Origin: Desulfitobacterium dichloroeliminans LMG P-21439
GTDB lineage: Bacteria > Bacillota > Desulfitobacteriia > Desulfitobacteriales > Desulfitobacteriaceae
Assembly: GCF_000243135.2 (NCBI RefSeq)
Contig: NC_019903.1
Location: 1,278,001-1,342,000, forward strand
Reading direction: 5' to 3'
DNA length: 64,000 bases
Shown here: positions 37,105 through 53,031 of the stretch, piece after piece
How the letters are laid out: every line of letters begins with the position of its first letter
Position numbering within the stretch: position 1 is the first letter of the stretch
The notes under the pieces: generated by a model
Database searches by the model: none
Seen by the model: only the letters and a program-made list of their open reading frames with translations
Told to the model about the DNA's origin: nothing
Position numbers and translations under genes: made by a program

Positions 37105-38388
37105 ATGTCACATGATTATGTGGGGAAAAGTTGGGGTGATGTTCCCAATGAAGTTAAAAAGCAACTTTTGAGTAATGCGATTTGTTTGGATATAGAGCAT
37201 TCTTGTATTGCATCTGAAGGATCGTGCTTAGTCGAATTAAAAGAAACCCTTGTTGTCCCAGGTGAACTTATCGATGGAAAGATAGTAATTGATAATAATG
37301 CGGAGCTTTACAACCCTATCATCAGGGATCTAAATGATGATTTATTTACTGAACCAGATGACGAGGTGTATAAAAAATACGAGCGGCATATGAAAAATAG
37401 ACCTCACGTAGTTTTATTAGGTGCTGGGGCAAGCATGGCAGCTTTACCAAACGGAGATAAAAATGGTAGAAAAATATCTGCTATGTCTGGGTTTATTCAG
37501 AAGTTAGGCATGGAGGGAGTCCTTTCAAGCATTAATTTGAAAACAAAAAGTGATAATCTTGAAGATATTTATATGGAAATGTACGACAGAGATGATTGCA
37601 CACAGGCGCGATTAAACTTAGAAGAACGAATATACAATTATTTCGTTGACTTTGTTATTCCTGATGGACCAACAGTATATGATTTTCTGATGTTAAGCTT
37701 GACCAGGAAGGACTTGATTGCATCATTCAATTGGGATCCTTTATTAGTTCAGGCTTATCTAAGGTGTGTTAAAATAACTGACAATTTACCTCAATTAGCT
37801 TTTTTACATGGTAATGTAGCCGTAGGATTTTGTGACAGTTGCAATGTTATGGGAACTACATTTATGGAATGTCCTCATTGTGGGAAACATCTTATGCCTG
37901 TAAAATTATTATATCCTATCAGAAATAAAGACTATGCATCTATCAAAGCCGTAGAGAAGAGTTGGAAATCGTTGCAGAATGCACTGGAAGTTGCATATAT
38001 GGTAACGATTTTTGGATATAGCGCTCCTAAATCTGATGCCGCAGCTATTGCTATGTTAAAACAAGCGTGGGGAAATGTGACAGATAGGAAATTTGAAGAA
38101 ATAGAAATAATTGATATTCGAAATGAAGATGATGTGGTAAAGTCATGGGAGAATTTTATTCATACACATCATTATTCAGTCCATAATAGTTTTTTCAAAT
38201 CAACCCTAAGTCATTGCCCAAGAAGAAGTTGCGAGGCTACATTTGACAGATTAATGAATTGCAGATGGCTTCAGGCCGGACGAGGTTATAATGAGAGCAT
38301 GAATTTTGATGATATTAAAATGCTGTTGAAAAGCTTGATTATAGAAGAAAAAAACAATTCTGGGATGCTATCAGATCCCTATATCTAA
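37105..38388 (+). CDS. SIR2-like NAD-binding protein with zinc ribbon, possible defence effector
   Basis: A 427-residue protein. After an unassigned N-terminus (1-95), VVLLGAGASMAALPNGDKNG (GAGAS at 106-110) is the NAD-binding start of a Sir2 fold. IASFNWDPLL (209-211) and LAFLHGN (234-237) are the typical Asn and His segments, four Cys (243, 246, 256, 259) form a zinc ribbon, and VTIFGYSAPKSDA follows. Stand-alone SIR2-like proteins often act as NADases in phage defence. Base use is more AT-rich than in both neighbours, and it sits at the start of the accessory region, consistent with transfer. It has no visible partner gene, so function is open. Confidence 0.7.
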   Translation: MSHDYVGKSWGDVPNEVKKQLLSNAICLDIEHSCIASEGSCLVELKETLVVPGELIDGKIVIDNNAELYNPIIRDLNDDLFTEPDDEVYKKYERHMKNRPHVVLLGAGASMAALPNGDKNGRKISAMSGFIQKLGMEGVLSSINLKTKSDNLEDIYMEMYDRDDCTQARLNLEERIYNYFVDFVIPDGPTVYDFLMLSLTRKDLIASFNWDPLLVQAYLRCVKITDNLPQLAFLHGNVAVGFCDSCNVMGTTFMECPHCGKHLMPVKLLYPIRNKDYASIKAVEKSWKSLQNALEVAYMVTIFGYSAPKSDAAAIAMLKQAWGNVTDRKFEEIEIIDIRNEDDVVKSWENFIHTHHYSVHNSFFKSTLSHCPRRSCEATFDRLMNCRWLQAGRGYNESMNFDDIKMLLKSLIIEEKNNSGMLSDPYI

Positions 38389-38582: not shown

Positions 38583-39095
38583 ATGGCAAACGAAACAATG
38601 CGTATCTTTTTCCCTCTGAAGATCATCATCTACCCTCAAGGCGAGTATGGATTTGAGGACAACCCGGAGGACATCACTTCCAAAGAGGCCGTAGCGTATG
38701 AGGACTCTATCCTCGCCGCAATCGCAAAAGAGAATCGGTTTTTTGAAAATGACCGTGGCCTTGCCGAATACATCCACGACGAAGCTCTCAATAAAAAGGT
38801 GTATAGCCTGTACCCGTCAGTGGAAGTCGTCGATGGCGAGCTATGGGGAGTCATGACAGCAGGACTAAAAGAATCGCTCTCCGGCGAAGAAACCGCCGAG
38901 CTCATTAATTTTGTGTCTGGGCAAAATAGTGACGGATACGGTGAGGGCCTGGAACAGCGCCCCATTAAAACGTCCAACGGAGAAATCTATGTCAGCTTCT
39001 GGAATCACGAAAACTATTCCTTAAAGCTGGAGCAGGAGATGAAAAATAAAACTCCTGACATTGGATATGGCGGTCCGGTGATGGGAGGAATGTAA
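38583..39095 (+). CDS. Accessory-element protein of unknown function with Met/Gly tail
   Basis: A 170-residue cytoplasmic-looking acidic protein starting MANETMRIFFPLKI behind a GGAGGAAAT site. I do not recognise a domain. It ends in GYGGPVMGGM, one of the shared tails described in the findings. It is the first gene of the GC-rich block and the next gene starts one base after its stop, so they are coupled. Confidence 0.7.
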   Translation: MANETMRIFFPLKIIIYPQGEYGFEDNPEDITSKEAVAYEDSILAAIAKENRFFENDRGLAEYIHDEALNKKVYSLYPSVEVVDGELWGVMTAGLKESLSGEETAELINFVSGQNSDGYGEGLEQRPIKTSNGEIYVSFWNHENYSLKLEQEMKNKTPDIGYGGPVMGGM

Positions 39096-39422
39096 ATGAG
39101 CAAGGTGTTCTCTATCATCGGTCTGGAAACCAACACCGGTATCCAAGACGTCGGACTCATGGGCGGCATCCCCCAAGCGGAGGACATCCAAAAATCCCGG
39201 CTATACAAAGAGCTGGTTGAGGACTGCGGCGGATCAGAATATATCATGGTGGCGGTTAAATCCTACCGTTATGGTGAGGGAGAGCCGGAGGATGCCATGA
39301 CCGAGGATCTCGATTGGCTCAAAGCTCGTCCCGATTTTTTGTTAAGCGAAGCGGTTACACATCTGCAGACTAAAAGCTTCGCTATTCTATACCCCGATCA
39401 GGGAATGCAGATGAACATGTAG
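39096..39422 (+). CDS. Accessory-element protein of unknown function
   Basis: A 108-residue protein starting right after the previous stop. No known domain seen. It ends PDQGMQMNM, another Met-rich tail. Two terminators follow, so the pair forms one transcription unit. Confidence 0.65.
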   Translation: MSKVFSIIGLETNTGIQDVGLMGGIPQAEDIQKSRLYKELVEDCGGSEYIMVAVKSYRYGEGEPEDAMTEDLDWLKARPDFLLSEAVTHLQTKSFAILYPDQGMQMNM

Positions 39423-39460
39423 CGCTCTTTGGTTTCTATGAAGCTGAAGGGCGCTTTTTG
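39422..39460 (+). terminator. First terminator after the accessory gene pair
   Basis: AGCGCTCTT pairs with AAGGGCGCT across a loop of about 17 bases, followed by TTTTTGC. Confidence 0.65.
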
Positions 39461-39511
39461 CATTTTCAAAAACTGTGATGTAAACCAAATAACTAAATAA
39501 GTGAACGAGAA

Positions 39512-39550
39512 GGCGCTGTCTTTACAAAAAAGGCAGCGCCCTTTTTGTTT
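39512..39550 (+). terminator. Second terminator after the accessory gene pair
   Basis: GGCGCTG (39512-39518) pairs with CAGCGCC (39534-39540), followed by CTTTTTGTTTTT. Confidence 0.75.
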
Positions 39551-39571
39551 TTCCGAGAAAGGGGCTGAACT

Positions 39572-39775
39572 ATGAACAATGATTTAAACACAGAAGTAAA
39601 AATCGACGCAGAAGGAACCGGACCACCTAAAAAGTATGCCGTGCCTTCGCCCGAAGATACCGCCCGATGTGCTGGATGTCCTTATCCCGGCGTCGGTTTC
39701 ATCTGCTGGGGTACAGACGGCTCCTGTATGAGAACAGAGGTTGAAAGGATCAGCCGCCGAAGCAGAGGGAGGTGA
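39572..39775 (+). CDS. Small cysteine-motif protein
   Basis: A 67-residue protein behind GAAAGGGGC. Cysteines in ARCAGCPYPGVGFICWGTDG and a fourth in SCMRT suggest a small metal-binding or disulfide-linked module. I do not know the family. It is immediately followed by the DNA methylase gene. Confidence 0.6.
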   Translation: MNNDLNTEVKIDAEGTGPPKKYAVPSPEDTARCAGCPYPGVGFICWGTDGSCMRTEVERISRRSRGR

Positions 39776-39779
39776 TGTA

Positions 39780-40712
39780 ATGAACAGCCCCATCAGCTGG
39801 GTGGGCGGTAAAAAGGCACTGCGGGATCTGATTTATCAGAGGATGCCGAAGGAATTCGGCAGATACATTGAAGTCTTTGGCGGAGGCGGCTGGGTGTTGT
39901 TCGGGCGAAAGCCCGGCACCGCTATGGAGGTTTACAACGATTTTAACTCCGACCTTGCTAATATGTTCCGCTGCATCCGTGACCGCCCCATGGCCTTGCT
40001 TAAGGAGTTGGGCTTCCTTCCGCTGAACGGACGGGATGAGTTTAATGTCCTGAAAAAATTTCTGGAGAAGGATGAATTCACGAACGAGTACCTGCAGGAG
40101 GAAATAGAGATCGCCCAGCGGTATCTCACAGCACCGCAGTTTGATGAAATCAAGCTCATCCTCTTGGAAAATGCGCAAATGAATGACGTCAAACGCGCTG
40201 CTGCCTTTTACAAGCTCATCCGTTTAAGCTACGGAAGCGGCTGCACCAGCTATGGCTGTCAGCCATTCGATATCCACAAAACCTTTGACCTCATCTGGCA
40301 GGCAAGCCGCAGACTCAAGGACACGGTCATTGAGAACAAGGACTTCGAAGCTCTGATCAAGCAATACGACCGTGAGAACGCCTTCATTTACTGCGATCCC
40401 CCATATTATCAAACAGAGGGACACTACGAAGTGGTATTCAGAAAAGAAGATCATTACCGTTTGCGGGATACCTTGGCATCCTGTCTGGGCAAATGGCTGG
40501 TCAGCTACAACGACTGCGAATTCATTCGTGAGTTATATCAGCACTTCAACATCGAAGCGGTCAGCCGCATCAACAACCTTGCGCAGCGCTATGACAACGG
40601 CTGCGAATATGCCGAGGTGCTTATCTCCAACTACGACACCAGCGAGCGCATGCGGGATATGCCTATCCAGATGGGTTTATTCGACCTCGGCGGATTGTTC
40701 GGCATGCAATGA
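39780..40712 (+). CDS. D12-class DNA N6-adenine methyltransferase
   Basis: A 310-residue methylase. Motif I is SWVGGKKALRDLI (FxGGK type) and motif IV is IYCDPPYYQTEG (DPPY). The ATG at 39780 follows GGGAGGTGAT; the longer frame from 39741 lacks a ribosome site. No restriction enzyme is seen next to it, so it is more likely a solitary methylase protecting or marking the mobile element. The end GLFDLGGLFGMQ is again Gly/Met-rich. Confidence 0.9.
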   Translation: MNSPISWVGGKKALRDLIYQRMPKEFGRYIEVFGGGGWVLFGRKPGTAMEVYNDFNSDLANMFRCIRDRPMALLKELGFLPLNGRDEFNVLKKFLEKDEFTNEYLQEEIEIAQRYLTAPQFDEIKLILLENAQMNDVKRAAAFYKLIRLSYGSGCTSYGCQPFDIHKTFDLIWQASRRLKDTVIENKDFEALIKQYDRENAFIYCDPPYYQTEGHYEVVFRKEDHYRLRDTLASCLGKWLVSYNDCEFIRELYQHFNIEAVSRINNLAQRYDNGCEYAEVLISNYDTSERMRDMPIQMGLFDLGGLFGMQ

Positions 40713-40749
40713 CAGGAAAACAAATTATTTTATCAGGAGGTTTTACTTT

Positions 40750-41331
40750 ATGAAAATGATTGAAATGCGTACATGCGTGGACAAGGACGGCCGACTTGTC
40801 ATTTCTGAAAAAACCGTAGGAGGGGCTGGATTCAATCCCGGCGATGAGGTGTACGTCTCCCTTGCAGTTGCGAAAGGGGAAACCCATCCCAGCCCGATAC
40901 ACCTCAGCACAACTGAACCTTCAAATATCATTATTAATCCAGATGATGAGGATGTGTTCGCTCCGGAGGATGAGCTGCACATACCGGATGTGCTTCTGGA
41001 GGCTGCGGGTATTCCGAAGGACTGCAGTCTCGGCGCTTTCGGCGGGAACGGAAGCCTTGTCTTTTACAATGCAGATGAAGATGAGGAAGATGAGCTGGAG
41101 GATGAGTCGGAGGACGAAGGTGATCTGTTTGTACCCGGTGAGCTGTTGGAGGCGGCAGGCATTCCGGAGGATAGCGATCTCGATATCATCTTCACTGACG
41201 GCGCCATCGTCATAATGGAAGCAGATATTCTGGACAATCTGCCGGATGAGCTTCGGGATCTGTTCGGCAATATTGGCATTGATCCTGATACGGTGCGGGA
41301 GGTTATGAGAAAGGAAGGTTATTTCGTATGA
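40750..41331 (+). CDS. Protein with three AbrB-like swapped-hairpin repeats
   Basis: A 193-residue protein behind a CAGGAGG site. Three AbrB/SpoVT-like segments are visible: DKDGRLVISEKTVGGAGF, the repeat around IPDVLLEAAGIPKDCSLG and the repeat around VPGELLEAAGIPEDSDLD, each followed by a short beta stretch. A very acidic linker lies between the last two. It overlaps the next AbrB-type gene. Likely a DNA-binding or antitoxin-like regulator of the element; no toxin is visible. Confidence 0.65.
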   Translation: MKMIEMRTCVDKDGRLVISEKTVGGAGFNPGDEVYVSLAVAKGETHPSPIHLSTTEPSNIIINPDDEDVFAPEDELHIPDVLLEAAGIPKDCSLGAFGGNGSLVFYNADEDEEDELEDESEDEGDLFVPGELLEAAGIPEDSDLDIIFTDGAIVIMEADILDNLPDELRDLFGNIGIDPDTVREVMRKEGYFV

Positions 41332-41621
41332 AAGCAAAGCCCATTTACAAGATCCTTGATGACAAGGGCAGAGTCCTGATTCCCAAGGCGCTCCGCGCAT
41401 CCGCTGAAATGGAGCATGGCGATATTGTGCGTCTCGGCGTGAACAAGGGGGTCATCACAGCCAAGAAGGTTGATCTCATCGAGCTTGGCGACCAGTCTCC
41501 GGAAGCAGTGGAAGCGTTTGTGCGCGCCGCCATCCGCGACATGCCGGAGGAAACGCAGATAGGCATCGCCGCAAGACTGCTGGAGCTGGTCGAACAGAGA
41601 AAGGAGCAGCGCCATGAGTGA
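41328..41621 (+). CDS. AbrB/MazE/SpoVT-type regulator
   Basis: A 97-residue protein with an N-terminal swapped-hairpin domain (YKILDDKGRVLIPKALRASA) and a helical C-terminus. It overlaps the previous and next genes, so the three are co-translated. It probably regulates transcription of the element; a MazE-like antitoxin role would need a toxin partner that I do not see. Confidence 0.75.
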   Translation: MKAKPIYKILDDKGRVLIPKALRASAEMEHGDIVRLGVNKGVITAKKVDLIELGDQSPEAVEAFVRAAIRDMPEETQIGIAARLLELVEQRKEQRHE

Positions 41622-42201
41622 GGAAGTATTGTTTTCTCAGGAGGACTGTCTGAAGAGCGGGTATGACTTTTCAATCAACGGTAAGGTTATAGTCCTCAAA
41701 CCCTCCGTGTTATCGGAGGAATTCCGTAACACCAAGCATCAGCTGTACTTCTGCACCGGAGGCTTCGGCAGCAATCCCAATCCCAGCGGCCGATCAGTTT
41801 TTGTCGTTTCCCTTGCGGACGGTGAGCAGGTTCGCTGGAACCGAAGCGACATCCTCGGTATCGCAAAGCCGGAGATCCTGTCCGACCACGCCCGGCTGCA
41901 ACTCTCGCAGATCCGTCCGGCAGCTGCGCTGGATCTCAAAAGCCATGAGCCGCAGTACAGCGGCTATTGCTTTTTGCCGGACGGCCGATATACCTCCGGC
42001 GTATGGCTGTGCAGCACCAAGGAGGTGCAGGACTACATCGAAATGCAGAAGGACTATCAGCACCGTGTAATGATTTGCGACCGTTATGACTTCTGTGTGT
42101 TCGAGATGATTGACGGCAAGCTAATTCATCCTTCACCGGAGGTCTTGGAAGCTTTCTTTAAGGAACAGCAGGAGCCGGGCGGCATGGAGCTGAAGCTATG
42201 A
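41614..42201 (+). CDS. Accessory-element protein of unknown function
   Basis: A 195-residue protein starting inside the AbrB-type gene. No domain recognised. The C-terminal part reads FFKEQQEPGGMELKL, a Gly/Met end like those of neighbouring genes. A terminator follows at 42221. Confidence 0.65.
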   Translation: MSEEVLFSQEDCLKSGYDFSINGKVIVLKPSVLSEEFRNTKHQLYFCTGGFGSNPNPSGRSVFVVSLADGEQVRWNRSDILGIAKPEILSDHARLQLSQIRPAAALDLKSHEPQYSGYCFLPDGRYTSGVWLCSTKEVQDYIEMQKDYQHRVMICDRYDFCVFEMIDGKLIHPSPEVLEAFFKEQQEPGGMELKL

Positions 42202-42220
42202 AAGCAATATGGGCTTAAGG

Positions 42221-42250
42221 CCGGAATCAGATAAAGGGTTCCGGTTTTTT
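42221..42250 (+). terminator. Terminator before the surface protein gene
   Basis: CCGGAA (42221-42226) pairs with TTCCGG (42239-42244), followed by TTTTTTC. Confidence 0.75.
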
Positions 42251-42286
42251 CATTGTCAAAATTAAAAGAAAGGATTGAGAAAACCC

Positions 42287-45200
42287 ATGAAACAGAAAGG
42301 AAAACGCATCGTCATTATTGCCCTTGCTCTCCTTCTCCTTATATGCGGCGGAATCTATACGGCGTACCGCCTGCATCCGGAGAGCTTTGTCGGGCAGGAT
42401 GAAATCATCACACGCGGTGAGTACGCCGCAATTCTGGCGCAGGAAATTCCGCTCGATACCTCAAATGCGGAAAAAGACCCGCCCAGCTTTTCCGACATTG
42501 ACGGTCACTGGTCGGAAAAATACATCGAAGCACTCATTGACGCCGGAATCATTGACCCCGCCGATTATCCCGACGGCTTCCATCCCGACGACCCGATCAC
42601 CCGCGCCGAGATACTAAAGATGCTCGTGAGAGCGGATGGCAAGGACGAGGAAGCAAAAAACACTCAAGGGCACAGCGGATATGATGACCAGCCGGACATC
42701 AGGGATGAGGACAAGGGATATGTCATCATCGGCCGTGAGAACGGAATCATCGGAGATACGGATGATAATAAAATCCGTCCCAATGATCCGGCTACCAAGG
42801 GCGAAGCCGAGGATATGAACGACAAGGTCACGCCGAAGCCGACTGAACCAACGCCAACCACTCCGAGTCCGACTCCCGGAGCCAAGGATCAGCCGACGCC
42901 TACCCCGACGAATCCGGACGAAAACCAGCCAACCCCAACTCCTACCCTGCCTCCTACGCCCACACCCGGCAATCCTGGCGGCGGCTCAGGAGGCGGCTCA
43001 TATTATCCTCCCGCACAGGTGAGGTTTGAACTCCACGAAACGGTTCATACCGACAGCGAAATTCATGTGATGCCTGTATGGAAGTACATGAAAACCTATA
43101 CCTGGACGCTGACCAAAACCGCCGTTGATGGTTCACAGCAGCCTATGGAGCTGGCTGATGCTGTAAGCGGAACCCTCGGCTTGGAGGGGGGCACAATCCA
43201 ATTCAAGGAGGAAGGACAGTATACTCTGACCGCCACAGCCAAAAACGCCAGAGGAAAGGAAACCGTGCTGTCCAAGCGGGTAACAGTGTATCCGGTTATC
43301 GACCTGAGCTTTGACCTGCCGGAAACCACCCATACCGACAAATCAGTCACGCTCACTTTCCCGTTGGAAAAGTTCTATGGACACGACATCGTGTGGTCGG
43401 CGGCAAAGGACGGCGAAGCTGTCCAGCCGACAGACATTCTGGAGGGCGAGCTTGGAAACGAAGGCGGCACCTTTGTGTTCGGGAATAAGGGCAAATATAC
43501 GCTCACAGCGTCCATTGCCGACGAAATCGGCCGAGTATTCACCCATAGTGAAAATACCAAGGTCTATCCTGTGGCGGGCATAGCATTCTCACTTCCCGCT
43601 GCGTCCCATACCGACACGGCGCTGGATGTGGTCACAGCTCTGACCGAAGCGGAAGGTCTGACCGTCAGCTGGAGCCTGACGAAGAATGGTGAAGCGGCAG
43701 CGCTTGCCGACGAGCTGGAGGGCAGCCTCACCAGTGGCGGCGGGAATATCCGCTTCAAGGACAGGGGCGTGTATATGTTAACCGGGACGCTCGCCGACGA
43801 AACCGGCAGAATCTTTGAAGACTCCCATACCATAACCATCTATCCGGTAGGCTCCATCGGCTTTTACGCACCGGAGATCACCCATACCGACAAAACGATC
43901 CATGTGGAAACACTCTTTGAGAACCTTGGCGACGCTGCAATCCAGTGGTCGCTGACCAAGGACGGAGAAGCTATTGTCCTTGCTGATGCGGTTCAGGACG
44001 AGCTGACCAACGAGGGCGGATATATCCGCTTCATAGATAAAGGCGAGTATGTTCTGAAAGCCGCCTTCACCGATCCGGCTGGCAGAAGCTACAGCTATAC
44101 GGCGCCCGTCAAGGTTTACCCTGTTCCCGGCATCACATATACATTACCGGAAACCGCCCACACCGATACCATCGTCAATGTGATTTCGGAAACCACGGAA
44201 CTGGATGGACTCAATGTTGAGTGGCTGTTGGAGAACGGCTTTGGCTTCCAGAATTGGGCGACATATATCGATGGGACACTGGATAACAGCGGAGGCTCCA
44301 TCCGCTTCAAGCATGCCGGAACCTACGAGCTGATTGCAAGAATTACCGATGAAACCGGGCGGGTATTCCTGTTCGAAAACGGCGGCAGGATCGAAGTCCT
44401 GCCAGTGCTGAGCATCAGCTTTGAGCTTCCTGAAGCAACCCATACCGACAGAACCATCGACCTAAGGACCCGAGGCAATAACAACATACTGCCGGTGGAG
44501 TGGATAATCACCAAAGACGGCACGAATGTTGAGCTATATGACGTTGTGGATGGAGCACTGAATGCCTACGGCGGTAAAATACGCTTTATGCAGACCGGAG
44601 ATTACACCCTGACTGTCGCCATGACGGATGCTCTGGGCAGGGCGTTCTCTTACAGTGCATCAACGACAGTCTGCCCAATCCCAACGATTAATCTCAGCAT
44701 GCCGGAGGTTTGGTACGACGGTGAAGCCGGAACGATCAGAGTAAGCGGTACGGATTTGGAGAGCCTCACCTCTGAATGGACGGTCGTGAAGGATGACGGC
44801 GGTGCTGAACCGTACTCAATTTATGCATCCGGTACACTCACCAAAGCAGGCGGCAGCCTGACCTTCCCGACTAAGGGACAATACACTCTGCTCCTGACCA
44901 TGACAGACCCCACCGGACGCAGCTTCACAAAGAGCAGGAGCTTCACGGTATTTCCCATCCCGACCATGAGCATCAGCGTCCCGCCGCTGACCTACAGCAC
45001 TGATTCCATGGCAATCACCGTCTCCGGTACAGAGCTTAACGGCACGGATACTGCTTGGTTTATCTCTGTGGATGGCGGTCAGGCCGAGTCCTATACCCAA
45101 TATGCCACAGGCACTGTCGGCACAGGCGGCGGTAGTCTTACCATCAGCACGGACAAAACCATTGCTGTTAAGCTGATTGGCGAAACTACCGATGTGAATG

Positions 45201-46327
45201 GAAGGAAATTCACCTTTACATCCAACACGGCGACGATCAAGCCGATAGCCAGCTTCCCGTTCACCATCCCGTCCTCTGTTCATATCGGGAGCAATATAAA
45301 CGTATCCCTGCCGACTATGTCGGGATTGGAGGGCAGAACCCTTACATGGTCGCTGACCAAAGGCGGAAGCCCGGCGAGTTACACCGGAAGTCTGTCAAAC
45401 AGCGGCGGCGCTATTACAATAAGCGTACCTGGCAGCTATGTTCTGACTGCCAGCACGACCGACAACACAGGCAGAGCTTTCACTTATTCGCAGAGCATCA
45501 ACATCACCAATACTGCACCGAATAAGCCCACCGGCAGCGCCACGGTCACAAGAACAGCGCTAAACGGCAAGCTGAAGGTAAACATTTCGGCATTTGCAGC
45601 CGATCCGGACGACGACACTGTTACGCTGGAATACTCCGGCAACACAGCGGACAGCTATTATTCCGTGGGTACTCATACCGTCTATGTCAGAGCAAAGGAC
45701 GCATGGGGGCTGTATTCCGACTGGACACCAATCACCTTCACTGTGAACAACTCTGCGCCCACAACTCCGGTAATTAACCGTACTCCTGACGGCAACAGCA
45801 TCGCTCCCGGCGTACCAATTACAATCACCGCCTCCAGCAGCGATGCTGACGGCGACGCTATCAACTATGTCTGGGAAGGCCGTCCGGCACAGACAAGCAC
45901 TGCTTATCCCCTCGGTAAAAATGTGGTGCGTGTGAAAGCTGTTGACTCAACTGGCGCCGAATCGCCTTGGGCGGCTATCGTGTTCTTTATCGCCGACCCC
46001 AATCGCGGCGGGGGCATGACGCTGACCGGCCCTGAATCGGTCATTCTGGAACAGGGCATCGCAGGAGCGACCATCACCAACTATACCTTCACGGTGCCGC
46101 CTGTTTCAGGTCACAGCGGCGACGACTACGGTCGTGTTCGCGGCTATAATGTGCTGACTGGACAGTGGGATCAGCTGAACTACGGCACAACCACCAACGG
46201 CATCACCTTCAGCCGCAGCCTGTCGCCCGGTATCTACAGTCAGCTGGAGTTCTACTATTACACCAACCACGACTGCATGTACAACAAGAGCAATATCACT
46301 TACTCCGTAAGCTTCTATTTCCAGTAA
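42287..46327 (+). CDS. Large SLH-domain, Ig-like repeat surface adhesin
   Basis: A 1346-residue exported protein. It has an N-terminal signal/anchor helix (about 8-28), SLH repeats (about 40-170; FSDIDGHWSEKYIEALIDAG and GIIGDTDDNKIRPNDPATKG) and a Pro/Thr-rich linker (about 180-240). About nine Ig/PKD-like repeats of 85-95 residues follow to about 1110; the first six contain a conserved HTD near the start and YTLTA or similar at the end. Two Fn3/PKD-like modules and a C-terminal beta domain end it. SLH domains bind cell-wall polymer, so it is a surface adhesin, possibly for mating-pair or biofilm contact. Its place among mobile-element genes is unusual. Confidence 0.8.
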   Translation: MKQKGKRIVIIALALLLLICGGIYTAYRLHPESFVGQDEIITRGEYAAILAQEIPLDTSNAEKDPPSFSDIDGHWSEKYIEALIDAGIIDPADYPDGFHPDDPITRAEILKMLVRADGKDEEAKNTQGHSGYDDQPDIRDEDKGYVIIGRENGIIGDTDDNKIRPNDPATKGEAEDMNDKVTPKPTEPTPTTPSPTPGAKDQPTPTPTNPDENQPTPTPTLPPTPTPGNPGGGSGGGSYYPPAQVRFELHETVHTDSEIHVMPVWKYMKTYTWTLTKTAVDGSQQPMELADAVSGTLGLEGGTIQFKEEGQYTLTATAKNARGKETVLSKRVTVYPVIDLSFDLPETTHTDKSVTLTFPLEKFYGHDIVWSAAKDGEAVQPTDILEGELGNEGGTFVFGNKGKYTLTASIADEIGRVFTHSENTKVYPVAGIAFSLPAASHTDTALDVVTALTEAEGLTVSWSLTKNGEAAALADELEGSLTSGGGNIRFKDRGVYMLTGTLADETGRIFEDSHTITIYPVGSIGFYAPEITHTDKTIHVETLFENLGDAAIQWSLTKDGEAIVLADAVQDELTNEGGYIRFIDKGEYVLKAAFTDPAGRSYSYTAPVKVYPVPGITYTLPETAHTDTIVNVISETTELDGLNVEWLLENGFGFQNWATYIDGTLDNSGGSIRFKHAGTYELIARITDETGRVFLFENGGRIEVLPVLSISFELPEATHTDRTIDLRTRGNNNILPVEWIITKDGTNVELYDVVDGALNAYGGKIRFMQTGDYTLTVAMTDALGRAFSYSASTTVCPIPTINLSMPEVWYDGEAGTIRVSGTDLESLTSEWTVVKDDGGAEPYSIYASGTLTKAGGSLTFPTKGQYTLLLTMTDPTGRSFTKSRSFTVFPIPTMSISVPPLTYSTDSMAITVSGTELNGTDTAWFISVDGGQAESYTQYATGTVGTGGGSLTISTDKTIAVKLIGETTDVNGRKFTFTSNTATIKPIASFPFTIPSSVHIGSNINVSLPTMSGLEGRTLTWSLTKGGSPASYTGSLSNSGGAITISVPGSYVLTASTTDNTGRAFTYSQSINITNTAPNKPTGSATVTRTALNGKLKVNISAFAADPDDDTVTLEYSGNTADSYYSVGTHTVYVRAKDAWGLYSDWTPITFTVNNSAPTTPVINRTPDGNSIAPGVPITITASSSDADGDAINYVWEGRPAQTSTAYPLGKNVVRVKAVDSTGAESPWAAIVFFIADPNRGGGMTLTGPESVILEQGIAGATITNYTFTVPPVSGHSGDDYGRVRGYNVLTGQWDQLNYGTTTNGITFSRSLSPGIYSQLEFYYYTNHDCMYNKSNITYSVSFYFQ

Positions 46328-46346
46328 CCAATCCTCTGATGACGGG

Positions 46347-46385
46347 AACAGCACCATGATTATCATGCTGCTGTTCCTAACCGTT
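46347..46385 (+). terminator. Hairpin after the adhesin gene
   Basis: GGAACAGCA pairs with TGCTGTTCC across ATGAT/ATCAT inner pairs (46347-46379), followed by TAACCGTTTT. The U-run is weak. Confidence 0.5.
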
Positions 46386-46413
46386 TTACAAATCAGGAAA
46401 GGAGAAATCGCCT

Positions 46414-47007
46414 ATGAGCGTAAATGCCAGAGAAGAACATCATGAGCATGTGGAGCTGTTCGGGAAACCGGCGCTCTTTACCAACTCCCGCATCGAGCGG
46501 TCGACTGTTCCGAAGGGTTTTCACTGTTACGATGTGCGCGGCTCGGACAATGATCCCGGCAGCCCGGTAACGGTTGAAAACCTCGTCGCTGTGAATCACG
46601 CCGCAACTGTTCTTACACCGGAACCGGTCGCCATCCCACAGGAAGGATATCGCCGGTTCAAGGGAGAACTGAATTTCCTCGGAGAATGTATGACGCTTGC
46701 CGAGTTCTGTGATGAACACGGTCTCACGCTTGGAGATATAAGCGAGCTGCCAGACATGTGCTTCTCCGTTCTGCCTAGCGACGGCAGCCTCATTTGTGTC
46801 AAGCATAGTGAAACCGGCTATTACAAATCGGATTGGGATACCGGCGACCCTGTGAAAAACAGAGAGCTTGCCGACTTCAACAACGAGGAGCTGGGCGTGT
46901 CAAGAGCGCAGGAGGAAGCCATGGTCATCAAATCCATGACCGGCTGGGTGTCTCAGGAGCCATCCTCGCAGGAGTTCGGCATGGAGCAGAAAATGAGTGG
47001 AATGTGA
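46414..47007 (+). CDS. LPD28-domain protein
   Basis: A 197-residue protein. FGKPALFTNSRIERSTVPKG, FHCYDVRGSDNDPGSPVTV and VNHAATVLTPEPV match the LPD28 domain (large polyvalent protein-associated), which occurs in Firmicute conjugative elements and phages. The C-terminus EFGMEQKMSGM is Met-rich. The ATG follows a GGAAAGGAGAAATC site. Function of LPD28 is not known. Confidence 0.75.
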   Translation: MSVNAREEHHEHVELFGKPALFTNSRIERSTVPKGFHCYDVRGSDNDPGSPVTVENLVAVNHAATVLTPEPVAIPQEGYRRFKGELNFLGECMTLAEFCDEHGLTLGDISELPDMCFSVLPSDGSLICVKHSETGYYKSDWDTGDPVKNRELADFNNEELGVSRAQEEAMVIKSMTGWVSQEPSSQEFGMEQKMSGM

Positions 47008-47022
47008 TACAAGGAGGCTTTC

Positions 47023-47583
47023 ATGAACGGTATTCAGATTAAAAACAACCGAATTCTCTACTACGGCAACACAGCCGGATATCTCGACAAGGATAAGGCT
47101 GTTGTAGACCCCCTGTTTGAAAACGACGAGCTCAAGTCCTATCTTTCAAACACCAAGGGAATCAATGTGGAGTGGACGCCCGGCACCTACGAGCGGCTGG
47201 CGGAGGGAAAGCTCGATTCGGAAGGCAATGCACTGATTCTGAAGAAGTGCCGTGTCTGGCAGCTCAGGCCCGATGTTGACCCCATGATGAAATTCATCGG
47301 ATACGACGAGTTGCTGAAGAATTTCGGTGAGCCAGATCCGGATAATTACCGGGTGGTCTACGACGGCGAGGTGGATACCAACGAGCTGGAGGCCCTATAT
47401 GCCAAATTCAATCTCGACCATCCCTCCGGCTACGAGGGGCATAGTCTCTCCATGTCGGATGTTGTCGAATTATACAATAATTCCGGCAGTATCTTTCACT
47501 ATGTAGACCGCTTCGGCTTCAAGGAAATATCCTTCAAGCCGCAGGAGCAGGAGCTATACCAAGGACCGGAGATAAGCATGTAA
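47023..47583 (+). CDS. YodL-domain protein
   Basis: A 186-residue protein. YRVVYDGEVDTNELEALY and DHPSGYEGHSLSMSDVVEL are the YodL-like domain found in proteins of Firmicute mobile elements. It ends YQGPEISM. Ribosome site ACAAGGAGGC. It lies in the same run as the LPD28 gene. Function unknown. Confidence 0.75.
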   Translation: MNGIQIKNNRILYYGNTAGYLDKDKAVVDPLFENDELKSYLSNTKGINVEWTPGTYERLAEGKLDSEGNALILKKCRVWQLRPDVDPMMKFIGYDELLKNFGEPDPDNYRVVYDGEVDTNELEALYAKFNLDHPSGYEGHSLSMSDVVELYNNSGSIFHYVDRFGFKEISFKPQEQELYQGPEISM

Positions 47584-47594
47584 CCCAATCAGCC

Positions 47595-47618
47595 GCAGCC
47601 GAAAGGCTGTTTTTTTTA
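47595..47618 (+). terminator. Terminator after the YodL gene
   Basis: CAGCC-GAAA-GGCTG (47596-47609) followed by TTTTTTTT. Short but with a good U-run. Confidence 0.7.
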
Positions 47619-47648
47619 ATTCCAAAAATTTATAAGGAGGAATCACCA

Positions 47649-48053
47649 ATGCGTAAAACACAGAATGCGGCCAACACAGCGCAAGAAGCTGCACAGACTG
47701 TAGCCGAGCAGACCATACCCATGAAGGTAGACGTCAAGATCGGTTCCATCCGTCCGGAAGGCAATGTCCGAGCCTATGCATCCGTCAACCTCAATGACTG
47801 TTTTGCCATCAGGAATATAAAGGTTGTGGACAGCTCCAAGGGGCTGTTCATCGCCATGCCCAGCTACAAGGCGGGAAACGGCGAATATAAGGACATCTGC
47901 TTCCCTGTCACCAAGGAATTCAGGGAGCAGCTGAATAATGCGGTCATCGACGCATACAAACAGGCTCTCACGCAGAGTCAGCAGCAGAAGGCGGCGGATT
48001 CGCCCCCTTTTGACCAGGCACTGGAGCAAAGCTCCGGCATGCAGATGGGATAA
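47649..48053 (+). CDS. spoVG: SpoVG-family septation protein homologue
   Basis: A 134-residue protein with the SpoVG core (about 27-100: DVKIGSIRPEGNVRAYASVN, GLFIAMPSYKAGNGEYKD, PVTKEFREQL). SpoVG proteins are RNA/DNA-binding regulators, and mobile elements often carry extra copies. After the domain, a 30-residue tail runs QQQKAADSPPFDQALEQS and ends SGMQMG. The same kind of tail is seen on the protein at 48363. Ribosome site AAGGAGG. Confidence 0.85.
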   Translation: MRKTQNAANTAQEAAQTVAEQTIPMKVDVKIGSIRPEGNVRAYASVNLNDCFAIRNIKVVDSSKGLFIAMPSYKAGNGEYKDICFPVTKEFREQLNNAVIDAYKQALTQSQQQKAADSPPFDQALEQSSGMQMG

Positions 48054-48094
48054 TCAGGGAAAAGGCTATCTTAAAATTTTTGGAGATGATGCCT

Positions 48095-48307
48095 ATGAGC
48101 AAAGAGCAAGTCCTAATACCTCTGGGTACCGGCCAAACCTTTTACTACCAGCTTCCCAACATGAAGCTTCCGGATAACCATGCAATTCGTGAAGGGTTCC
48201 TGTGCAAAGGAAATATGCCCGCAGCCCTTGTGACTTCAGGGGTTGTTGAAGCTGCTGCCCAGGGCTTTTTCCATGTGGATGACGCACAGGAATACGAAAC
48301 CGAATAA
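48095..48307 (+). CDS. Small accessory protein of unknown function
   Basis: About 70 residues from ATG 48095 (ATGs at 48086 and 48089 and a TTG at 48080 are in the same frame; GGAG at 48082-48085 could serve only 48095). No domain seen. It ends DDAQEYETE, without a Met-rich tail. Confidence 0.5.
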   Translation: MSKEQVLIPLGTGQTFYYQLPNMKLPDNHAIREGFLCKGNMPAALVTSGVVEAAAQGFFHVDDAQEYETE

Positions 48308-48324
48308 GATTTCACAGGCAGTTT

Positions 48325-48352
48325 AACACCGGACTAAACCACCGGTGTTTTT
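48325..48352 (+). terminator. Terminator between small accessory genes
   Basis: AACACCGG (48325-48332) pairs with CCGGTGTT (48342-48349), followed by TTTTG. Confidence 0.75.
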
Positions 48353-48362
48353 TGCTGCCCAT

Positions 48363-48728
48363 ATGGAGGTGGTAAACACGAAAGAAGTAGAGCTGGAACT
48401 GGATCTGATCAGAGTTGTGTGCGATCCCAACCCACTTTTTAAGTATCAGCTTATTTACAGGGACGGAATGGCCACAGGCGTGGCAGGAGTATACAGCTTC
48501 GACGAGGACTGGTATTACCTTTACAAAAGTGACACGGAAAGATACAGGGTCAAGCGGTGCAAAGACCTGGAAGGCATTCCGCCCGCCTTTACCTATAAGC
48601 AGCAGCGAAAAAGGCGGGAAGATAAACCGGACGAACAAAAACCCCTTGAGCAAAGTGTGGCAGCAGATTCGCCCGCTTTGGAAGAAGTGCCGGAGCACAG
48701 CGGCTCCTTGCGCATGGGCGGTATGTAA
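48363..48728 (+). CDS. Accessory-element protein with shared C-terminal tail
   Basis: About 121 residues; the start is uncertain (ATG 48363; the frame runs up to a GTG at 48345 that lies in the terminator). The domain part, LELDLIRVVCDPNPLFKY to about residue 85, is not recognised. The tail SVAADSPALEEVPEHSGSL then RMGGM parallels the SpoVG tail (AADSP, acidic, MG end). The next gene is the pilin-like one. Confidence 0.6.
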   Translation: MEVVNTKEVELELDLIRVVCDPNPLFKYQLIYRDGMATGVAGVYSFDEDWYYLYKSDTERYRVKRCKDLEGIPPAFTYKQQRKRREDKPDEQKPLEQSVAADSPALEEVPEHSGSLRMGGM

Positions 48729-48772: not shown

Positions 48773-49036
48773 ATGAAAAAGCTCACTAAAAAAATCATCG
48801 GCAAGGCAAACGATATGATCACAAGGGTGATCGCCAAAAACACAGAAATGTTCCTCAAGTCTAGGGTCATTCTCTGCTCCCAGCGCGGGGAAGGCTTCGT
48901 GGACACTGCCATCAAAATCCTGATGGCAGTTGTCATCGGCGCCCTCCTTCTCGGCGGTCTTTATGCCCTGTTCGGCGAAACTATCCTGCCGACCTTGAAG
49001 CAGCGTATCATCGATATGTTCAATTATGGAGGCTGA
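48773..49036 (+). CDS. Flp/Tad-type pilin-like membrane protein
   Basis: An 87-residue protein with a basic N-terminus and QRGEGFVDTAIKILMAVVIG, a short leader before one long hydrophobic helix as in class III/Flp prepilins; cleavage would fall after the Gly before E. The next gene codes the prepilin peptidase and overlaps it. Assembled product would be a thin pilus. The leader (about 40 residues) is longer than in classic Flp, so the call is moderate. Confidence 0.6.
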   Translation: MKKLTKKIIGKANDMITRVIAKNTEMFLKSRVILCSQRGEGFVDTAIKILMAVVIGALLLGGLYALFGETILPTLKQRIIDMFNYGG

Positions 49037-49469
49037 TCTGGACGCTTTGTCACAACTGGCGACGCTTATGCAGGGCGGTTTTTTTGCTGCCCTGCTTGCG
49101 GCGGCGTCAATTACTGATATCCGCAAGGGTATCATTCCCGATAGGTTTTGCGTCGGCATAGCCCTGACCAGCCTAATTGCCTTTGGGCCACTGAAGCTGC
49201 TTGGTGTTTCCGCATCAATTATCTTTCTGATAGCTGCCCTTTTATTCGGCGGCATGGAAGGCGGAGATATCAAGCTCATGGCGGCGGCCGGGCTGGTGCT
49301 GGGCTTCAACAAAAGCATGATCGCTGCGGTCATCGGCTTAACCGCCCTGCTGGTATTCCATGCAGGCAATTATATAATCAAAAAGCTGCGCGGAAGGGCT
49401 GCTCAAAAGGCATATCCTCTCGCGCCGTTTCTTTCCCTCGGCTGCCTCGCAGCCTACTTTATAACTTAA
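49026..49469 (+). CDS. Prepilin peptidase (A24 family, TadV/CpaA)
   Basis: A 147-residue membrane peptidase with about four to five helices. The two catalytic aspartates are in SITDIRKGIIPDRF and GGDIKLMAAAG. The length is that of the short CpaA/TadV type without a methylase domain. The start is uncertain: ATG 49026 overlaps the pilin gene. It cleaves the prepilin leader at the membrane. Confidence 0.82.
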   Translation: MEADLDALSQLATLMQGGFFAALLAAASITDIRKGIIPDRFCVGIALTSLIAFGPLKLLGVSASIIFLIAALLFGGMEGGDIKLMAAAGLVLGFNKSMIAAVIGLTALLVFHAGNYIIKKLRGRAAQKAYPLAPFLSLGCLAAYFIT

Positions 49470-49482
49470 GGAGGAACACTCT

Positions 49483-50343
49483 ATGAGCTTTCTGAAAAAC
49501 CGCACGGTGCTGGGAGTTATTTGCATTGTGCTTTCTTTAACCATCTGCTTTGCGCTAACGCCTCTCTTTAATCAGAGCGTGTCTCAGAAAACGACCGTCA
49601 TCCGGGTAGCGAAGGACATCAAAGCAGGAGATACCATCACTAAGGATATGATCCAGACCGTGGAAGTCGGCGGCTACAACCTGCCGGAGGATGTAATCAG
49701 GCAACAGGACGCCGTTCTCGGTAAATACGCAGTGGCGGATCTGTCCCCCGGTGACTATGTCCTCACGGCCAAGCTGTCGGATACACCGGCGTCGGAGAAT
49801 GCCTATCTGTACAACCTGAACGGCGACAAGCAGGCTATTTCCATCAGCATTAAAAACTTTGCCGGAGGCTTGTCCGGCAAGCTGATCTCAGGCGACATCG
49901 TGTCGGTAATTGCGCCCGACTATAAAAAGCAGGGCTCCACCGTGATCCCTCCGGAGCTGACCTATGTGGAGGTCATCGGCGTGACCGCCAGCACAGGCTT
50001 CGACACCAATCAGCAGAACGCCGAAGCCGACTCAACCGTAAAGAATGATAACGAAAAGCAACTCCCCGCCACTGTCACCCTGCTGGCTTCACCGGAGCAG
50101 GCCAAAATATTCGCGGAGCTGGAGTCGGACGGCAAGCTCCATCTGTCCCTCGTGTACAGGGGCTCCAAGGAGGATGCCGCGAAATTTACCGAGCTGCAGG
50201 ACAAGGTAATTGAAGCCCTGTATCCGAAGCCTGCGTCGCGGACGGCTGAACAAACCCCGCAAGCGGCTGTTTCGGAAACACCGATCCCCTCGGCGGTTCC
50301 AACTGAGCCTCAAAATTCTGTACAGGAAACCGGAGGTGAGTAA
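49483..50343 (+). CDS. CpaB/RcpC-type SAF-domain pilus assembly protein
   Basis: A 286-residue protein with one N-terminal membrane helix (about 8-27), then a SAF domain (about 38-100; VIRVAKDIKAGDTITKDMI) and a beta domain (about 120-245). The C-terminus is rich in Pro and Ala. CpaB shapes the channel end of the Tad pilus. It is followed by TadZ at two bases' distance. Confidence 0.8.
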   Translation: MSFLKNRTVLGVICIVLSLTICFALTPLFNQSVSQKTTVIRVAKDIKAGDTITKDMIQTVEVGGYNLPEDVIRQQDAVLGKYAVADLSPGDYVLTAKLSDTPASENAYLYNLNGDKQAISISIKNFAGGLSGKLISGDIVSVIAPDYKKQGSTVIPPELTYVEVIGVTASTGFDTNQQNAEADSTVKNDNEKQLPATVTLLASPEQAKIFAELESDGKLHLSLVYRGSKEDAAKFTELQDKVIEALYPKPASRTAEQTPQAAVSETPIPSAVPTEPQNSVQETGGE

Positions 50344-50345
50344 AG

Positions 50346-51158
50346 ATGCTTAATTTCATGAAAGGGAGTATTTTCTCCCGCAAGCAGGCTGAGTCTGTGC
50401 CGGAGGAACCGGAACAGAATGTGCAGGTGCTGGCGGTATGGGGCAGCCCCGGCAGCGGAAAGACCACTGTGAGCGTCCGTCTTGCGAAATATCTGGCGGA
50501 TCAGAAGAAGAATGTGGTCTTGCTGCTGTGCGACATGACCACGCCCATGCTGCCCTGCATCTGTCCGCCCGGCGATCTGGAGTGTGAGCGATCCCTCGGC
50601 AGTATACTTGCCGCCACCCATGTGACGGATCTGCTCATCAAGCAGAACTGCATCACCCACAGGAAGCTGGACTACCTGACCATTATCGGAATGCTCAAGG
50701 GTGAGAACGTGTTTACTTACCCGCCGTACTCCCAGGAGCTTGCAGCCGAGCTGATTGACCATCTGCGGGACATAGCAGCCTACATCATCATCGACTGCGG
50801 CAGCGCCATCGCTCACGATATCCTGTCTGCGGTTTCGCTGCTGGAGGCTGATTCTGTTCTCCGGCTGGTAAACTGCGACCTGAAGTCTGTCAGCTACCTC
50901 TCCAGCCAGCTCCCACTCCTGAAGGATCAAAAATGGGACGCCGACAAGCAGTACAAGGTGGCTTCCAATATCAAATCGAATCAGGCAGGAGAGCATATCG
51001 AGCAGGTCTTGGGCAATGTCTCCTTCAGGCTTCCCCATTCGGACGAGCTGGAGAATCTGGCTCTATCGGGGAACCTGCTGGGAGGGCTGACACTCAAGGA
51101 CAGCCGGAGCCTCCGCAAGGAGATCGCCCAGCTCGCAAAGGAGGTGTTCGGCGTATGA
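50346..51158 (+). CDS. TadZ/CpaE-like P-loop ATPase
   Basis: A 270-residue ATPase of the MinD/ParA-like group. Walker A is VWGSPGSGKTTVSVRLAKYL and the second acidic site is YIIIDCGSAI. TadZ/CpaE proteins locate the pilus machine at the membrane or pole. The receiver domain found in some CpaE is absent. It overlaps tadA by four bases. Confidence 0.75.
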   Translation: MLNFMKGSIFSRKQAESVPEEPEQNVQVLAVWGSPGSGKTTVSVRLAKYLADQKKNVVLLLCDMTTPMLPCICPPGDLECERSLGSILAATHVTDLLIKQNCITHRKLDYLTIIGMLKGENVFTYPPYSQELAAELIDHLRDIAAYIIIDCGSAIAHDILSAVSLLEADSVLRLVNCDLKSVSYLSSQLPLLKDQKWDADKQYKVASNIKSNQAGEHIEQVLGNVSFRLPHSDELENLALSGNLLGGLTLKDSRSLRKEIAQLAKEVFGV

Positions 51159-51610
51159 GCAGAAAGAATCGCATGAAGGATATAAACATCCCGCCGCTTG
51201 CGGGAGTGAAACCTCAGGCCATCACCATGACAGGCAATCAAGGCCTGTTTTTTTCATCCGATGGAGCTGCCAGGGATTTCAACTCTGTGTTACATGAGGT
51301 GCAGGAGTACATCTCCGGCAAATATGCCACACTGATTACCGATGGCGGCACGGAGGAAGTCAAGGCGCAGATCAAGCGGTATATAACCAAATATGTTCAG
51401 GATTACCGTATCGCTGTTTCGGGTATGTCACAGAAGCAAATGGTGGACGCTCTGTACACCGAGATGGCGGAGTTTTCGTTCCTGACAAAATACATCTTCG
51501 GAGCCGGTATTGAGGAAATTGACGTCAATGCATGGAACGACATCGAGGTACAGTACAGCAGCGGAGTCACCAAAAAGCTGGATGAACATTTTGACAGCTG
51601 TGAATGGTGA
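51155..51610 (+). pseudogene. Truncated TadA/CpaF pilus ATPase (N-terminal part)
   Basis: Starts at an ATG overlapping the previous stop (ATGA). It reads through FGAGIEEIDVNAWNDIEVQY and SSGVTKKLDEHFDS, typical of the region before the nucleotide-binding half of TadA/CpaF ATPases, and then stops at 51608-51610 in the recombinase sequence. The Walker motifs are gone, so no motor activity is possible. No TadB or TadC is found downstream in the window. Confidence 0.75.
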
Positions 51611-52613
51611 GATGGTCATCGTTCCAGAAGAAGCAGAAGTTGTTAAGCGCATTTTTTCAGAGTGCCTTTCTGGTAAAGGTGGAAGTGTGATCGCAAAGGG
51701 CCTTAACAGGGACAAGATTCCTGCAAGAAGAGGTAATCATTGGAGCACAGGAACAGTGATTGATATGCTCCGAAATGAAAAATACAAAGGGGATGCGCTT
51801 TTCCAAAAGACTTACACCGACAGCAACTACAATCGGCGACCTAATAAAGGTGAGAAAGACCAATTTTACTGCAAGAATCATCATGAGCCTATCGTCAGCA
51901 AAGAAGTGTTTTCTAAGGCACAAAAGCTGATAACAAAAAGAGCGAAGAGTAAGGCTGTTAACAAAAAAGCTTATCAAAATAGATATGTATTAAGCGGCAG
52001 AATCATCTGTGGAGAGTGTGGGTCCACGTTTAGAAGAAAAACAAACTACTCTGCTGGCAGAAGTTATATCGCCTGGAGCTGCAAAGGGCATATTGAAGAC
52101 AAGAACAGCTGCTCCATGCTGTTCCTGCGTGATGGAGAGATAAAGGCAACCTTTGCCACCATGATGAATAAGCTTGCCTACAGCAGAAAGATTATCCTTG
52201 GGCCACTTTATGAGGCTATAAGTAAAAACCAAGAAGAGTGCGACCTTGAAAGAATTGATGCCATCGATAAGCGAATGGAGCAATTGACCGAAGAGCGCAA
52301 TACGCTTATTGGTCTTATGACAAAAGGGTTCCTTGAACCAGCACTTTTTAGCAAGGAACGAAATGCTCTGGATAGCGAAATAAAAAATCTAACCACTGAG
52401 AAGACAAACCTGGTCATGTCATTTACAAGTGGAACATCACGGGCTGATGAGGTAAAGACGATTCTTGAGCATGTGTCAAAAGATAAGTTTGATGGCAATT
52501 ATACAGACGAGGCATTTGAAAAGTTTGTAGAAAACATCATTGTAAATTCAAGGGATGAACTGACATTTAAAATGAAATGCGGACTTTCCCTGAAAGAAAG
52601 GGTGGTGAGGTAA
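51600..52613 (+). pseudogene. Large serine recombinase lacking its catalytic domain
   Basis: About 337 residues starting at the junction with tadA (a GTG at 51600 could serve as start). It begins VNGEMVIVPEEAEVVKRIF, which in intact relatives lies some 180-200 residues after the start, just behind the resolvase domain. It keeps the recombinase domain, the zinc ribbon (IICGECGSTF and WSCKGH) and a C-terminal coiled coil. Without the Ser catalytic domain it cannot recombine on its own. It runs in the same order as in three-gene recombinase cassettes. Confidence 0.78.
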
Positions 52614-53030
52614 ATGGCTTATGTACCATACGGATATACAATTACAGAAGGTATTGTTACTATCGATGAGAAGGCAGCAGATCAAGTGAGGGTGTTCTTT
52701 GAAAAGTACATTTCCGGGCTTTCCCTTGCTGTGGCCGGTGAGCAGGCTGGTATTCAGAAGACACATTCATCCATGGGGCTTATTTTGAAAAACGTCAACT
52801 ATCTTGGAAATGACGTATACCCCGCAATCATTGATAAAGAGACGTTTGATAAGGCTGAAGAAGTTAGAAGTAATCGTGCGAAGGATCTAGGGAGGATTGC
52901 AGAGCTTGCAGCTTTCAGTGCTCCTCCACCTATAGAAAGATTTAAAATGAAAAAATCAGAAGGTAAGCTTCCAGATGCTCCAATAGCGCGAGCGGAGTAC
53001 CTATATAGTCTGATAGAAAGCGAGGTGTAA
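52614..53030 (+). CDS. Recombinase-domain small protein
   Basis: A 138-residue protein consisting of the recombinase domain only ([40 protein letters not shown]) followed by a basic tail. No resolvase catalytic part. It starts immediately after the stop of the truncated recombinase. It is a usual middle member of such cassettes, perhaps a directionality or accessory factor. Confidence 0.7.
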
Positions 53031-53031
53031 A

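Follow-up and report, generated by a model that had tools for sequence, protein, structure and literature searches.

A candidate C-terminal recognition tag on unrelated proteins of Bacillota conjugative elements

Why should proteins that have nothing else in common end in the same few residues? The question is raised by a mobile element of Desulfitobacterium dichloroeliminans LMG P-21439, which lies in the window analysed here (a stretch of 64,000 nucleotides, bases 1278001-1342000 of the single 3.62-Mb contig NC_019903.1). A first reading of these letters had noticed methionine- and glycine-rich C-termini on eight element proteins with unrelated domains, and had proposed a common docking or sorting tag, for example for a conjugation or pilus machine. 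All eight C-termini lie exactly where the original prediction had placed them (Table 1), and Pfam searches confirmed the preceding domains that it had named, MethyltransfD12, LPD28, YodL and SpoVG; for the four remaining proteins with tails the Pfam search gave no family match. Our analysis suggests that the tail is probably a C-terminal recognition tag that marks cargo of the element for its own conjugative type IV secretion system (T4SS), the coupling protein VirD4 or a complex docked on it being the most likely reader.

The element occurs twice more in the same genome, as E1 (1350.4-1392.5 kb) and E2 (1749.7-1787.3 kb), and a single relaxase scan, in which the query relaxase copies themselves carried no tag, provided 80 related loci, mostly from Bacillota. 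Together with the three local copies, these relatives gave 1263 proteins, called by a simple script with approximate start sites and exact stops; 30 stretches of 20 kb served as host background. The common motif, hereafter the M-tag, is a disordered acidic linker rich in Q, E and P, followed by G-(M/F)-x-M-x-(M/L)-COOH, as in EENQGMTMSM. When the ends are lined up at their final hydrophobic pair, the consensus reads roughly E-E-E/Q-S/T-Q/P-G-M/F-T/S-M-S-M-COOH. The last 25 residues of tagged proteins have a net charge of -2.75, compared with +0.14 in host proteins.

The shared tails are not due to chance. A fixed tag pattern, which was written after part of the loci of the window's class (class A, below) had been inspected and which also picks up a few ends of ordinary domains, matched 253 of the 1263 genes in element loci (20%) but only 10 of 474 host genes (2.1%), and it occurred at internal positions of the same proteins at 1.8%. 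The excess persisted when one gene was taken per homology cluster (32/305 element versus 10/430 host genes, p = 3e-6). Of the 477 called host genes, 1.3% end in Met. Loss of the tails from homologues, or equally common tails among host proteins, had been named as results that would refute the proposal; neither was seen, as the tails are retained by homologues from related elements and host proteins lack them.

At least a dozen unrelated families in E1, E2 and the 80 relatives carry this one motif. Beyond the families of the window, carriers in E1 and E2 include DUF6329 (EESGMTMKF), DUF3849 (IGGMKME), DUF6103 (ENQGMTMNM), a primase (EQAVNFSMTM), an amidoligase (DESPGLSMSM), a 77-residue protein (TPGMKLQL) and, in E1, the protein ArdA (TGQQMG). 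Likely relatives of the YodL protein in other genomes end in TMDMSM and GQSMNL. Across the 80 loci the tag was found on 45 of 46 amidoligases, 56 of 68 Toprim primases, 20 of 30 DUF6329 and 31 of 84 DUF6103-like proteins, and 26 of 80 MobP3 relaxase genes were strictly tagged. In contrast, none of 261 machine parts bore it (VirB4 0/53, VirD4 0/69, peptidase 0/59, a 138-residue accessory protein 0/73, TrbL-like 0/7); in E1 and E2, the relaxase, VirB4, VirD4 and Tad-type genes likewise carry no tag. This distribution, with the tag absent from machine parts and present on relaxase and establishment proteins, argues for a substrate tag of the transfer machine. Adjoining an amidoligase, a GGACT (AIG2-like) protein (L044:3549-4043) belongs to a family with a conserved ending of its own, LFG(M/L)KWW; the linker before it is likewise acidic and rich in Q, and the ending may be a variant tag.

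Relaxase ends follow a related pattern beyond the strict matches. Of 53 distinct MobP3 C-termini, 46 have a hydrophobic last residue, in most cases preceded by acidic residues (DDHEQTMSL, DEHEQDMKL, DDHEPEMKL), and the set can be described as GHxxDDHEQ followed by hydrophobic-x-hydrophobic-COOH (TMSL, EMKL, DMKL, QIHL, TTY). A protein that we judged to be the C-terminal half of a relaxase, from its Sel1 repeats and GHxxDDHE signature (locus L130), ends in DDHEQEQTPGMTMTM.

The SpoVG family shows the tail as an addition to a known domain. All 30 of the best-scoring SpoVG genes that we read as chromosomal stop at or just past the domain, without a tail, whereas 17 SpoVG proteins of this element type extend through a variable linker to GMQMG, RMQMGSM or PVMGGM, the GMQM being conserved. 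No tail was present on five SpoVG proteins from another type of integrative and conjugative element (ICE) or on two SpoVG proteins encoded beside mot-like genes. In an AlphaFold2 (AF2) model the domain scores mostly 80-90 in predicted local distance difference test (pLDDT) and nearly all of residues 118-134 fall below 50, so that the tail is predicted to sit outside the fold. The SpoVG protein and the protein at 48363 had also been said to share a longer pattern beginning with AADSP. The likeness is real, yet it is best read as common descent, because in three relatives (L179, L180 and L183) a single protein has the 48363 homologue as its N-terminal domain, followed by a SpoVG domain and the tail; relative to these, the version in the window is missing the SpoVG domain but still has the tail.

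The coupling protein of the element matches the CD1115 family of VirD4, and a search for this family in the host genomes of these elements separated two main classes by score, with few intermediates: class A, the full-length window type, at about 237-274 bits, and class B, canonical CD1115, above 390. Class B loci lack the M-tag (the fixed pattern matches 2.7% of their genes; p = 9e-6 for element versus class B with one gene per homology cluster). Instead, unrelated class B proteins share another ending, a basic linker followed by ER-COOH, on relaxases (RGPER, QSHER), DUF6674, DUF3801, DUF5688 and proteins of about 2400-2700 residues. Within the same four genomes, the M-tag was on 13 of 125 class A and 2 of 200 class B genes, and the ER tag on none of 125 class A and 27 of 200 class B genes. 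As the ER pattern was first noticed in the initial class B loci, p-values there are post hoc, and the clean test is that on 20 held-out class B loci alone, where 35 of 347 genes ended in ER as against 2 of 474 host genes (p = 7e-12). The presence of two tags in one genome, each limited to one element class, argues against a host reader; the reader is probably element-encoded.

Moreover, homologous proteins bear the tag of their own element class. Primases with bodies about 30-32% identical end in NFSMTM in class A and in HERNEER, SERRYER or RDELER in class B. (Phage primase homologues, considered as an untagged control, came mostly from unannotated faecal contigs judged likely to be ICE fragments and were not used.) Similarly, DUF5688 proteins end in QQGMHLEM in class A and KRGREMER in class B; other class B copies end differently, in two cases with basic ends, and, apart from one tagged copy, those near which no VirD4 was detected carry no tag. 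Since the tag goes with element class, changes between homologues of different classes, is missing from machine parts and, in many elements, sits on the relaxase, the proposed docking or sorting role in conjugation fits well; nothing ties the tag to the pilus genes, which are themselves without it.

How might such a tag work? On the reading that we favour, the acidic E/Q-rich linker and the terminal G-phi-x-M-x-phi-COOH on element-encoded cargo would form a linear signal bound, most likely, by VirD4 or by a cytosolic complex docked on it. Tagged proteins would thereby collect at the channel, and some of them, at least, would enter the recipient with the relaxase-bound DNA, where primase, ArdA and DNA methylase would initiate synthesis of the complementary strand and shield the DNA that arrives. 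We consider it an even question whether Gram-positive conjugative machines each use a C-terminal code of their own, acidic GMxMxM with one class of VirD4 and basic ...ER with another, such that any domain gaining the code would be delivered to the recipient along with the DNA.

Several points weigh against the reading that we favour. Binding and export of the tagged proteins are both inferred from sequence. The relaxase evidence is partial, because relaxases of the window's own subclade end in TTY or QSY instead of M-x-M. Class B tags are looser, and ER endings occur in a subset of class B loci only; in the held-out set they were concentrated in the loci with the highest-scoring VirD4, and class B is thus not uniform. 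For VirD4 combined with the natural read-through tail of a primase (L055, its stops read as Q), AlphaFold2 returned a low-confidence model in which the tail did not dock; we set it aside as an uninformative helical artefact. Finally, a distant MobP3 plasmid, with a VirD4 35% identical, shows just weakly similar ends. That plasmid (CP141730.1, locus L280) carries Tad-type genes, and its endings NFMLDMD, TMEFDR and MQMERGIQP perhaps represent a third code.

The alternative that survives best, possible though unlikely, is that the tag docks proteins within the donor on some other element-encoded hub, such as a scaffold, the relaxosome or a complex for replication or partition, and plays no part in export. 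The same sequence evidence would suit it, including a class-specific, element-encoded reader. Acidic-hydrophobic tips of the SSB type are known to recruit proteins to a DNA hub, and the tagged set includes many DNA-acting proteins (primase, methylase, ArdA, relaxase). Others, however, have no evident DNA role, among them the amidoligase and YodL proteins, and a donor hub accounts poorly for a tag that changes with VirD4 class.

Short hydrophobic C-termini can also be degrons, and the tail might keep element proteins short-lived by exposing them to a host AAA+ protease such as ClpXP. We regard this as very improbable, given that a host reader would not distinguish the elements whose two tags coexist in the same genomes, and that the relaxase bears the tag too. 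Equally little credence attaches to a by-product of low-complexity drift, of the next gene's ribosome-binding sites or of common descent of 3' gene ends. The longer SpoVG/48363 pattern does look like descent, one tail directly precedes the next start codon (39095/39096), and some pattern matches are ordinary domain ends, for example NADGYKLLMG. Yet the tail codons vary and only in that one case does a following gene begin within the tail or directly behind it, so that an origin from ribosome-binding sites or start codons is ruled out; nor would drift be expected to leave, in many families, a tail that is conserved beyond its variable linker. The tag also stands at 20% against a background of about 2% and is swapped in step with element class. 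A Gly-Met-rich tail for folding or self-association as in GroEL is most improbable: a blind DNA search for GMxMxM-stop did match GGMGGMDMGM ends, one of them (L135) a confirmed chaperonin, Cpn60, but this match to the Met/Gly-rich GroEL end, a repeat confined to a single family, is superficial and coincidental, since the element tags are acidic with alternating hydrophobic residues, are not GGM repeats and occur on many folds, those carriers with a known domain belonging to other families.

The arrangement resembles that of Dot/Icm (type IVB) effectors, which bear a C-terminal E-block (EExxE) or a terminal hydrophobic residue (PMC7251119). In both cases an acidic, glutamate-rich stretch and a hydrophobic extreme C-terminus are common to many unrelated proteins and are, or here would be, read at a coupling-protein complex; the M-tag has E/Q-rich positions ahead of its hydrophobic pair and a terminal M or L. 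Shared ancestry is not established by this likeness. The Dot/Icm reader is a complex of DotL, IcmSW and DotM; the elements belong to Bacillota and encode a CD1115-family VirD4 instead of DotL, the methionine motif is much tighter, and the putative substrates look like DNA-establishment proteins and relaxase rather than host-cell effectors. Co-transfer of such proteins has precedents in Gram-negative conjugation, where the passages of PMC8406263 on protein transfer list the SogL primase of ColIb-P9 and the ParA, ParB, SSB, PsiA and PsiB proteins of pED208, the same kinds of cargo, primase and recipient DNA-establishment proteins, beside the relaxase. Unlike the proteins studied here, those cargoes are given no common C-terminal tag in these passages; F TraI uses internal translocation signals. 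For YodL, ArdA and the LPD domains of Firmicute elements, a paper on polyvalent proteins of conjugative elements discusses a part in biological conflicts during transfer (PMC5512222); the passages found there that concern C-termini, tails or signals name no shared tail. The large class B proteins here end in ER. Neither the M-tag nor the ER tag was described in the literature searched, most subscription papers and preprints being outside reach.

Substrate choice by Gram-positive conjugation machines is poorly understood, and the protein-transfer work that we consulted concerns Gram-negative systems. If each machine does have such a code, these common elements inject a set of proteins for establishment and counter-defence that is recognisable from sequence. 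The tag would then list the proteins likely to be delivered, predict new anti-restriction or anti-defence proteins, and suggest a role for the orphan families DUF3849, DUF6103, DUF6329, DUF5688, LPD28 and YodL.

Table 1. Tailed proteins and adjoining untagged genes of the element (window positions)
Coordinates	Strand	Product	Family match	C-terminal tail (position)	Copies in E1 and E2
38583..39095	+	170-residue protein	no known family	GGPVMGGM (39069-39092)	81-83% identical; E1 GGPVMGGM, E2 GGPVMQ
39096..39422	+	108-residue protein	no known family	QGMQMNM (39399-39419)	E1 QGLQMNM
39780..40712	+	D12-class adenine DNA methylase	PF02086, E=6e-30	FDLGGLFGMQ (40680-40709)	E1 FYGME, E2 FNGME
41614..42201	+	195-residue protein	no Pfam or NCBIfam match	GGMELKL (42178-42198)	E1 GGMELKL, E2 GGMDLKL
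46414..47007	+	LPD28 protein	PF18843, E=3e-38	FGMEQKMSGM (46975-47004)	E1 SGMEQTMGGM
47023..47583	+	YodL-domain protein	PF14191, E=2e-39	GPEISM (47563-47580)	E1 GPQMSM, E2 GPTMSL
47649..48053	+	SpoVG-domain protein	PF04026, E=4e-33	disordered linker, SGMQMG (48033-48050)	
48363..48728	+	121-residue protein (alternative GTG start 48345)		GSLRMGGM (48702-48725)	
48773..51610	+	untagged envelope and pilus genes: DUF6133 small protein, A24 peptidase, CpaB, CpaE-like ATPase, start of gene at cpaF position			

The methylase tail is a weaker match to the motif. It also contains QMGLF (QLGLF in E1), which we take to resemble a sliding-clamp binding motif.

The window copy of the element ends at 51.6 kb: the gene that occupies the place of cpaF stops there after 151 residues and runs directly into serine-recombinase genes (51610-54594). 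E1 and E2 continue into transfer genes for a VirB4-like ATPase, an NlpC/P60-like protein, a MobP3 relaxase with Sel1 repeats, a DUF3991/Toprim primase and the CD1115-family VirD4. Cut at the cpaF position, the window copy is therefore without the half that holds relaxase, VirB4 and VirD4, and its tagged cargo would rely on the machine of another copy. A 427-residue protein (37105-38388) with a GAGAS motif, SIR2-like by eye and with no Pfam match, is encoded between the element and the host genes upstream of it. Within the cargo block, an untagged surface protein of 1346 residues with SLH and PKD domains (42287-46327) has versions of 1535 residues in E1 and E2.

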